Below are positions 7,956 to 26,533 of a DNA stretch of 32,997 bases, piece after piece. The stretch's first letter is position 1, and each line of letters begins with the position of its first letter. The notes under the pieces were generated by a model, which saw only the letters and a list, made by a program, of their open reading frames with translations, was not told the DNA's origin and searched no databases. The position numbers were made by a program, and so were the translations under genes. Origin of the DNA: Lentisphaerota bacterium (lineage in GTDB: Bacteria; Verrucomicrobiota; Kiritimatiellia; CAIQIC01; Lenti-01). Location: assembly GCA_012511885.1 (NCBI GenBank), contig JAAZFE010000086.1, positions 1 to 32,997 on the forward strand, read 5' to 3'.

Positions 7956-8292
7956 CCTGAATAATTCACCAGCCTGGTTGAAATAATCTTATACCTCGGA
8001 GCATCTGGTGAAGGTATTTGGCAGGGCTGATCGTGTGAATGCACGTGAGAAATTTATTCTCACTTATAATAAGTGAGAATATGAGAATACATATCTTACT
8101 TGAAACCAATATATTACAACTATTACATTTAGTAAAACCATTCTCACTTATTATAATATATGAGAATGGATTTGTTTTTTGACGTGGCGTTTTCAGCTCT
8201 TCGACGGAGCATTCGGGCGTACAAAATATACCCAGCAGGTTTGCCCCGCATGTCTTGAATTCTGATCGGATTTGACGCGTAAATTATTCAGG
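7956..8292. repeat. Intergenic TIR element, copy B (337 bp, AT-rich core)
   Basis: Left CCTGAATAATTCA (7956-7968) is an inverted repeat of right TAAATTATTCAGG (8280-8292), differing at one position. The right 27-mer aligns with copies A and C. Confidence 0.75.
8045..8169. repeat. Cluster of GTGAGAA/TTCTCAC palindromes in an AT-rich island
   Basis: GTGAGAA-ATTTA-TTCTCAC (8045-8063); ATTCTCACTTAT-A-ATAAGTGAGAAT (8056-8080), a perfect 12-bp inverted repeat; CCATTCTCACTTATTATAATATATGAGAATGG (8138-8169) with 16-bp arms and 2 mismatched pairs. Confidence 0.9.
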
Positions 8293-20589: not shown

Positions 20590-20808
20590 TTACTCCGGGG
20601 GTTCAGGCTCACAACTGCGTCCATCTGTCCACGATGGAACACTTTCGCGGGAGGATAGGGGGCGGCCTTCTGTTCGACAAGCGCGAATTTTTCTGAATTG
20701 GCACATCAACATGCGTGAAAAGGCCGCATTTCGCCGCCGGGCGGCTTGCCGGGGCGAAGCGGGGATTGAATATGCGGGCGAATGCGATACACTACCCCAT
20801 TGGCCTAA

Positions 20809-20892
20809 CCTGGATTATTCATGAACATGGATGAAACAATGTTATTTGCTGCGGAGCAGCATGAACCGGACTTGTCGCGTGCATCATCCAGG
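20809..20892. repeat. Intergenic TIR element, copy C (84 bp, compact form)
   Basis: CCTGGATTATTCA ... TGCATCATCCAGG (inverted repeat, 2 mismatches). Internal GCTGC-GGA-GCAGC hairpin. Flanked on both sides by CTAA. Confidence 0.8.
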
Positions 20893-20914
20893 CTAACCTG
20901 ACTTATTCAATCAG

Positions 20915-23900
20915 ATGGAGTTATCAACGGACATTTTGCGCGACTGGGGCGGGGATACGGTCTTTCGGGACAGTCTCTCGCTGTTGGAGCGGGTCGAGGT
21001 GCTGGATGCCGAATTCGACCTGCCGATGCTGCGCGGGACGCTGTCCTGGGGCACGCGCTCGATCAAGACGGCCGCGCGGGTGCTGCCGGACATGACCTGC
21101 GAGAGCCTGTGTCCGTGCCGGGACAATGTCGAGCGCGGCGTGATTTGTCCGCATGTGATCGTGCTGGGGCTGACCTGGCTGGCGCGGCGGGGCGATGCGG
21201 GGCGCGGGCGGGTAACATCCGCTAAGGGGCGGGGAGATTGGCGGCTGGCCGAGGGGGCTGAGGACGCCTTGCATCTGCATGTGCCGCCGGGGACACCGGG
21301 CGCGCGCGAGGCCGTGGTTGTGGCGGGTCTGACCGGGAACTGGCGCGAGCGGGCGGCCGCGGGAAGGCTGTCCATCGAGGTGGCTCTGGCGCTGGATGGG
21401 GCGGAAGCCCAGCCCATCAGCGAGACGCCCCCGCGCACGGCGCTGGGGCTGAGCGCCCGCCAGGAGCGGCTGCTGACACTGCTGGAAAACGCGGCGGAGG
21501 GGCCAGTGCCGGACGCTCTTGAACTGGAGGGCGAGGACGCGGTGGCTTTTCTCGAGCTGCACCGGGGGCAGGCTCTCGAGGCGGACGGCGGGAAGCTGGC
21601 GGTGAATGCCGCGCCGGTGTCGGGCGGGGCGCAGGTGAGCCTGGACCATGCCAGCGGGGAATTGAAGGTGGCGCTGGAGACGGGGGATGCTGAACTGACG
21701 CGGGGGGCGGCGGGCTATCTGATCCATGGTCAGCGCGGATGGCTGGCGGGGGCGGATGGTTTTTGGCCCCTGACTCAGGTGGCGCCGGAGGCCTGGCATG
21801 AGCTTTACCGCGGGCCGGTGGTGGTGCCGCGGACGGCGGTGCCCCGCTTTTTGCACGAGGACCTGCCCCGGCTGCGCGCGCGCCTGCGGGTGGTGACGGA
21901 AGTGACCGAGGATCTTTTCCATTTCGACCCGGAAGCACCGGAGTTCCGTTTGAACGTGCGCGGCAGCCCGGCCAGCCTGGCGATGCAGTTGCTGGCGGTC
22001 TATCAGGATATTGAGGCGCCGGCCGGCCAGGAGCTGCCGCGCGAGCGGTTTGCCCATCCGGACCCCGGCGATATTCTGCGCTATACGATCCGGGATCTGT
22101 CCGCGGAACGGCGCGCGCTCGAGCTGCTGGCCCGGTTCGGGGTGGGGGGGCGTCATGGCGGCGCGCTGGCCGGCATGGTGGGAATCCGCGAGGTGCTGAA
22201 TTTTCTGGGGCGGGCGGCGCCGTTTTTGCGCCGGCAGGGCTGGCGGCTGGCATGGAGCGGACGGATCGGCGACTGGCAGCGGCAGGCGGTGTTTGCCCAG
22301 CCCCAGGCGCGCATCGAAACGGATGAGGCGGACGGCTCGTGGTTTGACGTGGCCTTTGACTATGACGACGGGGAGGGGGGGCGGATCTCCGCCGTGGAAA
22401 TTCAGCGGGCGCTCGAGCGGGGCGACTCGTTTTTGCGGCGCGGCGAGCAGACCATCCTGCTGGACGCGGAGGCGCTCGAGGAGCTGCACGGGTTGTTCCG
22501 CGACTGCGCGGCGGGGGAGGGGCGGCATCCGGGCGGTTTCCGGCTGCCGGCGATTTATACCGCCTATGTGGCCAGCGCGTTGCAGGCGCTGGAGGGGGCG
22601 TCGGTGCGGGCCCCGGCCACGTGGTTCGAGACCGCCGCGCGGCATAACCGGCTCGAGGAACTGCCGGCGGAGCCTTTGCCCGGGGAATTCGACCACCTGC
22701 TGCGGCCCTATCAGCGGGAGGGGGTGCAATGGCTGCGTTTTTTGCAGCGCAACGGATTCGGCGGCATTTTGGCGGATGAGATGGGGCTGGGCAAAACCCT
22801 GCAGGCGCTGGTGTGGCTGGCGATGGCGCACCGGGGGGCGGCGGAGGGTGGCGGCCCGGCGCGGCCGTCACTGATTGTGTGCCCGACCAGCCTGACGGAG
22901 AACTGGATTGCCGAGGGCGCGCGTTTTACGCCGGGTCTGCGCATGGTGGCCATGACCGGCAGCGAGCGGCACCGGCACCTGGAGAATCTGCAGGAGGCGG
23001 ATGTGCTGGTGACGTCCTACGCCCTGCTGCGCCGGGACATCGAGCGGTTCGCGCCGCTGGACTTCATGGCGGTGGTGCTGGACGAAGCGCAGCACATCAA
23101 GAACCGGCATACCAGCAACGCGCAGGCGGCCAAACGGCTCAAGGCCGCGCACCGCCTGGTGCTGACCGGCACGCCCATCGAAAACGGCGCGGGCGACTTG
23201 TGGAGCATCATGGATTTTCTGATGCCCGGCTACATGGGGGGGCAGGAGGCGTTCCGGCGCGGCATCGAACAGCCGATTGCCCAGGGCGGTCTGGCGCGCG
23301 AGCTGGCGCAATGGAAGCTGCGCCGCAAGCTGCGGCCCTTCCTGCTGCGCCGGATGAAGAAGGATGTGGCCCGGGAGCTGCCGCCCAAGATCGAGCGGGT
23401 GGCGGCCTGCGCGCTCAGTCCGGACCAGCAGCGGGTCTATGGCGCGCTGATCCGCGACGCGCGGCGGCGCATCACGCGTCTAGTGGCCGAGCAGGGGTTC
23501 GCCCGCGCCAAGTTCCAGATTCTGACCATGCTGCTGCGCCTGCGGCAGGTGTGCTGCCATTTGGATTTGCTAGGGAACAAGGAGCTCAAAGCGCGGCGGC
23601 CTTCGGCCAAGATGGAGCTGTTTTTCGAGCTGCTGGACGAAGCCCTGGACGCGGGGCACCGGGTGCTGGTGTTCAGTCAGTTTGTATCCATGCTGTCTAT
23701 CCTGCGGCAGGAAATCCGGCGGCGGGGCCTGCGGTTGTGCTATCTGGACGGGGCGACCCAGGACCGGTTGAGCATTGTGCAGCGGTTCAACCGCGACCGT
23801 TCCATTCCGGTGTTTTTGATCAGTCTGAAGGCCGGGGGCACGGGGCTGAACCTGACCGGCGCGGACATGGTGATTCATTATGATCCGTGGTGGAATCCGG

Positions 23901-24118
23901 CCGTGGAGAACCAGGCCACGGACCGGGCCTATCGCATCGGGCAGGAGCGCACGGTTTACAGCGTGAAGCTGATCGCGCGGAATTCGATCGAGGAGCGCGT
24001 GCTGGCGTTGCAGCGCAAGAAGCAGCAGCTCTATCACGCGACGCTCGACGACGCGGACGGCGTGGCCGATGTGCGCGACCTGACCTGGGAGGATGTGCAG
24101 GAACTGATCACGCTGTAG
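20915..24118 (+). CDS. SNF2-family DEAD/DEAH-box helicase with N-terminal SWIM-like zinc finger
   Basis: LCPCRDNVERGVICPHVI (SWIM-like); GGILADEMGLGKTLQALVWLA; LDEAQHIKN; LTGTPIENGAGDLWSIMDFLMPGYMG; SLKAGGTGLNLTGADMVIHYDPWWNPAVENQATDRAYRIGQ. Confidence 0.96.
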   Translation: MELSTDILRDWGGDTVFRDSLSLLERVEVLDAEFDLPMLRGTLSWGTRSIKTAARVLPDMTCESLCPCRDNVERGVICPHVIVLGLTWLARRGDAGRGRVTSAKGRGDWRLAEGAEDALHLHVPPGTPGAREAVVVAGLTGNWRERAAAGRLSIEVALALDGAEAQPISETPPRTALGLSARQERLLTLLENAAEGPVPDALELEGEDAVAFLELHRGQALEADGGKLAVNAAPVSGGAQVSLDHASGELKVALETGDAELTRGAAGYLIHGQRGWLAGADGFWPLTQVAPEAWHELYRGPVVVPRTAVPRFLHEDLPRLRARLRVVTEVTEDLFHFDPEAPEFRLNVRGSPASLAMQLLAVYQDIEAPAGQELPRERFAHPDPGDILRYTIRDLSAERRALELLARFGVGGRHGGALAGMVGIREVLNFLGRAAPFLRRQGWRLAWSGRIGDWQRQAVFAQPQARIETDEADGSWFDVAFDYDDGEGGRISAVEIQRALERGDSFLRRGEQTILLDAEALEELHGLFRDCAAGEGRHPGGFRLPAIYTAYVASALQALEGASVRAPATWFETAARHNRLEELPAEPLPGEFDHLLRPYQREGVQWLRFLQRNGFGGILADEMGLGKTLQALVWLAMAHRGAAEGGGPARPSLIVCPTSLTENWIAEGARFTPGLRMVAMTGSERHRHLENLQEADVLVTSYALLRRDIERFAPLDFMAVVLDEAQHIKNRHTSNAQAAKRLKAAHRLVLTGTPIENGAGDLWSIMDFLMPGYMGGQEAFRRGIEQPIAQGGLARELAQWKLRRKLRPFLLRRMKKDVARELPPKIERVAACALSPDQQRVYGALIRDARRRITRLVAEQGFARAKFQILTMLLRLRQVCCHLDLLGNKELKARRPSAKMELFFELLDEALDAGHRVLVFSQFVSMLSILRQEIRRRGLRLCYLDGATQDRLSIVQRFNRDRSIPVFLISLKAGGTGLNLTGADMVIHYDPWWNPAVENQATDRAYRIGQERTVYSVKLIARNSIEERVLALQRKKQQLYHATLDDADGVADVRDLTWEDVQELITL

Positions 24119-24199
24119 CCTGTGGATACCTCAGTTTGGGTGAGGACGGCCCCCGCCCGGGTCGCATGTGAGCCGGACTTGCCGCGTGAACGGTTTGGC
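24119..24199. repeat. Degenerate TIR element, copy D, filling the convergent SNF2/LptF-G intergenic gap
   Basis: CCGGACTTGCCGCGTGAA (24173-24190) matches the conserved right-end core of copies A and C with one mismatch relative to A. The left end CCTGTGGATACCTCAGTTTGGGTGA is only weakly similar. Confidence 0.5.
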
Positions 24200-26485: not shown

Positions 26486-26533
26486 CCTGAACGGCTCATC
26501 AGCTTGGATGAAGGCGGCGTCACATGATGCAGG
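26486..26533. repeat. Short degenerate copy of the TIR element
   Basis: CCTGAACGGCTCATCAGCTTGGATGAAGG...CACATGATGCAGG. The left end aligns with CCTGAATAATTCACCAGCCTGGTTGAA; the right end resembles TGCATCATCCAGG. Confidence 0.4.

Follow-up and report, generated by a model that had tools for sequence, protein, structure and literature searches.

The 32,997 nucleotides of Lentisphaerota DNA analysed here (the window) contain several short intergenic repeats that share their ends and carry no transposase gene. The questions raised by this locus are how such repeats are moved, and whether the sequence between their ends matters. The genome of origin is represented by a Kiritimatiellae-type MAG of 2.49 Mb in 166 contigs with 62% G+C. 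For the nhmmer scan of the window, 69 full copies of the element were combined into a profile HMM. The three main copies of the original prediction (1–210, 7956–8292 and 20809–20892) are all present and match the profile. Three further copies had been listed as degenerate. One of them is supported as a right-arm remnant, whereas the match at 26486–26533 is not significant (E 0.29) and segment 25773–25808 has no profile match. The scan also located one left-end remnant that was absent from that list. The features of the window are given below, where arm B denotes the right-hand hairpin of the element.

1–210, + strand: MITE copy (nhmmer E 6e-67; right end an exact match; right flank ATAA)
100–199, − strand as the better-supported folded strand: arm B of copy 1–210 (R2 covariance model and strand test)
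7956–8292, + strand: diverged MITE copy (nhmmer 7956–8021, E 3.6e-5, and 8179–8292, E 1.3e-9)
8056–8169 (approximate), no strand assigned: second palindromic repeat inside the 7956 copy, of the TTCTCACTTAT..ATAAGTGAGAA type, which recurs at several other sites in the genome
20691–20777, + strand: degenerate left-end remnant (nhmmer E 2.7e-4)
20805–20808, no strand assigned: CTAA, target duplication on the left of the compact copy
20809–20892, + strand: compact 84-bp MITE copy (nhmmer 20809–20865, E 2.5e-10, and 20862–20892, E 1.8e-5)
20893–20896, no strand assigned: CTAA, target duplication on the right of the compact copy
24119–24199, + strand: degenerate right-arm remnant (nhmmer 24132–24196, E 2.9e-5)

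The copy at positions 1–210 has lost its left part at the contig edge, and its arm B, in + strand numbering, scores 89.4 bits with the R2 covariance model (E 1.6e-22). The copy at 7956–8292 is flanked by CCAG and TATG, and its target duplication is no longer present. Its 337-bp length results from the unrelated second palindromic repeat nested within it. This second repeat is AT-rich (CCATTCTCACTTATTATAATAAGTGAGAATATGAGAATA ... CATTCTCACTTATTATAATAAGTGAGAATGG), is dispersed in the same genome, and was also seen in loci L131, L134, L136, L153 and L193. The compact copy has kept its two ends and lost most of arm B. The right-arm remnant starts immediately 3′ of the stop codon of the open reading frame at 20915–24118. 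Elsewhere in the window, the gap between two genes at 1744–1879 contains five imperfect repeats of about 30 nt (TTTTCCAYRGCGTGGAAAA), each unit of which is a small palindrome.

The usual element is 217 bp long and intergenic, lacks a transposase gene, and has inverted ends of about 13 bp. The original prediction described the two ends as inverted repeats of each other; this is correct for the outer ~13 bp, which form the terminal stem (CCTGRATNATTCA / TGNATNATYCAGG), and farther inward the sequences differ. Between the ends lie two arms, arm A on the left (CAACATGGATGAAAA ... TTTTCATCCATGTTG) and, on the right, arm B, a hairpin of some 100 nt (CGCGACGATTCC ... GGACTTGTCGCG). Folding extends over the whole element, with z-scores of −7.3 for one strand and −9.4 for the complement. 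The right-end motif occurs three times in the window, compared with 0.04 occurrences expected. A genome-wide scan, which the original prediction had proposed, recovered many further copies, with 132 right ends at up to three mismatches (0 in the backwards control) and 133 occurrences of the shared left end. The element count is 138 in this genome, 6 and 1 in two genomes of the same genus, and 0–4 elsewhere in the family. The relatives carrying the right end are, where named, Kiritimatiellae and Verrucomicrobiota MAGs. Many contigs of the genome (L124–L222) stop about 100 bp within a MITE copy. The repeat is probably a main cause of the fragmentation of the MAG, including the left edge of the window.

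The flanks of the copies record their insertion. A perfect 4-bp target duplication borders 43 of the 89 paired copies, whereas shuffled flanks gave 6.4 of 89 on average and 14 at most in 1000 trials; about half of the paired copies have no perfect duplication. The consensus target is YTAR, and no duplication length other than 4 bp stands out. Two copies are nested within other copies, with the duplications CTAC and GGAT, and at one site a 22-bp remnant made of the two 13-bp ends only is flanked by CTAA repeats. The orthologues of the gap that holds the compact copy at 20809 lack the element in two relatives (G002 and G011); the original prediction had called for empty sites, and these gaps are too diverged for the exact empty site to be read. 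The nested insertions and the absence at this site show, as judged from genome comparison, that the element is mobile.

A probable source of the mobility is present in the same genus. Genome G001 contains two insertion sequences of 1620 bp, mutually 90% identical, that encode an IS1380-family transposase (501.8 bits with PF13701; 385 bits with NCBIfam NF033539, whose curated cutoff is 180). Their ends, CCTGAATAATTCATCAAC, match the left end of the MITE at all 18 nt, and the flanking duplications, CTAA and TTAG, are likewise of the YTAR kind. The right end of the MITE has only about 13 bp in common with the IS end. The transposase-bearing copy of full length that the original prediction had called for exists in a same-genus genome, and an end of such an IS is present at a contig break of the genome studied here (C74:6267–6389), where the match to the G001 IS end extends beyond the TIR with a score of 46 (shuffled 11 ± 4.4, maximum 26). 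A profile search of this genome's assembly found no intact IS1380 transposase. A multi-copy IS was likely dropped from the fragmented MAG, and a short-read assembly broken by repeats may hide autonomous copies. The IS1380-family transposase would recognise the common CCTGRATNATTCA ends. The only PF13701 match in the genome, an IS1634-family transposase (L031, 557 aa, contig C39), was considered as the partner and rejected; its ends are unrelated to those of the MITE.

The MITE and the partner IS have the ends alone in common, and arm B is absent from loci L048, L054 and L049. Since the interior is unrelated to the IS, derivation of the MITE from it by internal deletion was rejected. The MITE interpretation put forward in the original prediction is upheld by more than 130 copies, 4-bp duplications, nested insertions, variable presence among relatives, and the existence of an IS of the IS1380 family whose ends and duplications are the same. 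Mobilisation in trans, which it gave as a possibility, is likely in view of the end and the duplications shared with the same-genus IS and of the IS end at the contig break.

The element appears to insert with little damage to genes. In stretches of the genome totalling 1.26 Mb, genes were called by a simple codon model, and none of these genes is interrupted by a copy. Of the 80 full copies whose flanks sufficed for the comparison, 25 (~31%) have a stop codon exactly at the element boundary, against a background of 139 of 1071 (13%) non-coding YTAR sites outside elements (p 1.7e-5). Because YTAR contains TAG or TAA, insertion at a stop codon would recreate the stop and leave the gene whole, and such insertions would therefore survive in a genome with 62% G+C. 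The copies are about two to one co-directional with the neighbouring genes (left gene 60:27, p 5e-4), and between tandem gene pairs the numbers are 22 for ++ and 6 for −− (p 0.004). Selection and replication direction are candidate causes of this orientation bias. The stop-codon bias, the conserved fold and the phylum-wide spread were missed by the original prediction.

The fold and the spread both concern arm B. RNAalifold gave a poor consensus on the whole-element alignment owing to inserts, and arm-B alignments were used in its place. Two covariance models were built, R1 from 60 arm-B sequences and R2 from 31 diverse ones. Among 347 genomes of the class, R1 has matches in 41, which represent 25 genera. 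R2 was run on a sample of 390 genomes from the phylum and gave matches in 53, of which 23 lie outside the class; many of the 53 contain at least ten matches. In the genome studied here, every R2 match that was compared overlaps a MITE copy, and these matches include all weak ones on the listed strand. Elsewhere, arm B resides within elements that have other ends, one kind being the CCTTAATTTTGCA type. Carriers of the CCTGATCTATTCAT type have CTAA or CTAG duplications, and genome G072 contains two near-identical copies of this type at different sites. In some genomes, arm B stands alone right after a gene. A lone arm-B hairpin was seen directly 3′ of the apparent purH stop codon in two genomes of another family (L238 in G120 and L240 in G112); this conserved position may reflect either a function or an old insertion. 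In genomes G128 (L258–L264) and G027 (L265–L269), arm B is located in GC-rich multi-arm repeats resembling three-way junctions, in which arm B is joined by an outer stem and a second, small hairpin. The window has no match to Rfam 15 at the gathering threshold, and only weak, chance-level matches were found in L002 and in eight loci of relatives. A search for the core motif in viral contigs, plasmids and the text of papers returned nothing useful. An integron attC reading was set aside, as the RYYYAAC / GTTRRRY ends generally associated with attC sites are missing.

In the class-wide alignment of arm B, 29 of 34 pairs have changed on both sides. The both-side change cells number 244, compared with 67 in shuffles, and the signal is lost when partners are slid. 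Base pairing kept by such matched changes suggests a function for the folded strand. An A·C mismatch corresponds to G·U (or G·T) when read on the opposite strand, and G·U should exceed A·C on the strand that folds. On the + strand, A·C outnumbers G·U by 70 to 25 in the class-wide set and by 132 to 90 in the set from the genome studied here, in which 59 of the 90 G·U come from a single pair. The excess of A·C over G·U on the + strand therefore assigns the conserved fold, most likely, to the opposite strand. The complement gives the better fold in 26 of 31 and in 52 of 60 sequences, and its loops are purine-rich, with a symmetric tandem G·A motif, GCAGAUGC ... GCAGAUGC. A reading of the hairpin as a DNA-only structure, based on the scarcity of G·U, was dropped because A·C is about three times as common, which makes the complement the better fold. 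Selection would act on a single strand in its folded form, either RNA or single-stranded DNA, and this strand would be the complement of the + strand. We tentatively propose, as a possibility that falls short of an even chance, that arm B is a phylum-wide, undescribed structured module, probably a small RNA or single-stranded DNA signal from the complement strand. Several unrelated small transposons would have taken it up and spread it, with their ends serving as interchangeable carriers and the module as the conserved unit.

Alternatively, the matched changes could arise without any selection for a folded product, if template switching at quasi-palindromes corrects the palindrome at the DNA level. 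Nearly all of the pair changes in arm B are from one Watson–Crick pair to another, as template switching would give, and arm B resides in repeats that multiply as DNA. However, such correction predicts neither the excess of A·C over G·U, nor the better fold of the complement, nor the phylum-wide asymmetric loops with their tandem G·A motif, and we consider it an unlikely explanation, although one to be taken seriously.

Much less probable is the alternative raised in the original prediction, that the elements are REP- or REPIN-like hairpins moved by a RAYT, a Y1 HUH transposase acting on a folded single strand. The conserved loops and strand asymmetry of the hairpin arm would suit such a mechanism, Y1 transposase genes are common in the class, and REPs are likewise abundant intergenic hairpins, whose termini often supply stop codons to flanking open reading frames (PMC3733652). 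REPs, however, are palindromes of 20–40 bp tagged by GTAG or CGTC, and RAYT genes lie near many GTAG families (PMC3733652), whereas the elements described here are 217 bp long, with clear TIRs and 4-bp target duplications. Furthermore, arm B was found near the Y1 gene in none of 16 sampled loci; a single contig-edge MITE lay at a distance of about 10.8 kb. Since Y1 genes were detected in 288 of 347 genomes, both with and without arm B, their co-occurrence with it is uninformative. Slightly less credible still is that the copies are fixed, vertically inherited 3′-end elements such as terminators, mRNA stabilisers or small RNA genes: their stop-codon positions, mostly co-directional orientation and very stable whole-element folds fit this, but the uneven counts among same-genus genomes, presence and absence in relatives, target duplications and nested insertions do not, and the strand that folds better usually lies antisense to the gene upstream.

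In our main reading, to which we give a probability of roughly 85%, this element, whose body holds arm B under apparent one-strand selection, is a MITE: a non-autonomous transposon that most likely relies on an IS1380-family DDE transposase supplied in trans. It constitutes a new MITE family of a known kind, and its novelty is the shared folded arm. In the open-access literature, to which the search was confined, no paper on IS1380 MITEs or Kiritimatiellae MITEs was found; a prior description in subscription papers or preprints is possible.

ERIC insertions have been reported at the 3′ ends of genes, and to our knowledge no phylum-wide arm is common to ERIC or Correia elements with unrelated ends. 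The sequences, ends and hosts of the ERIC and Correia elements differ from those described here. The likeness is that they are also short and intergenic, fold over their full length, and can be co-transcribed with genes (PMC10969869). Prokaryotic MITEs derived from or moved by IS are similarly short, free of open reading frames, bounded by TIRs and target duplications, intergenic, present in high copy number and matched by a cognate IS with the same ends, and folded transcripts are known for them (PMC10969869). In contrast to these, the present family has a phylum-conserved arm B common to elements with different ends, a strong stop-codon bias, and an interior unrelated to the partner IS. Compared with the IS1380 family (NF033539, PF13701), the MITE has the 18-nt left end and the YTAR duplications of the G001 copy, but it lacks the transposase gene and the IS interior, and its right end retains only about 13 bp of the TIR. 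The piggyBac elements also use 4-bp TTAA-like targets, with TTAG, CTAA and GTAA variants reported, and IS1380 transposases served as the outgroup in the same paper (PMC10813416). However, piggyBac elements are eukaryotic, and the target preference is an analogy only.

The stop-codon bias suggests that a TA-centred target preference could allow more than 130 copies to persist in a G+C-rich genome with little gene damage. The interiors of bacterial MITEs are usually treated as expendable filler. In this element, no part is conserved more widely than the interior, where one folded arm, with its conserved loops and covarying stems, recurs between differing ends in many families of one phylum. Arm B is thus a candidate structured RNA or single-stranded DNA element that spreads on transposons.
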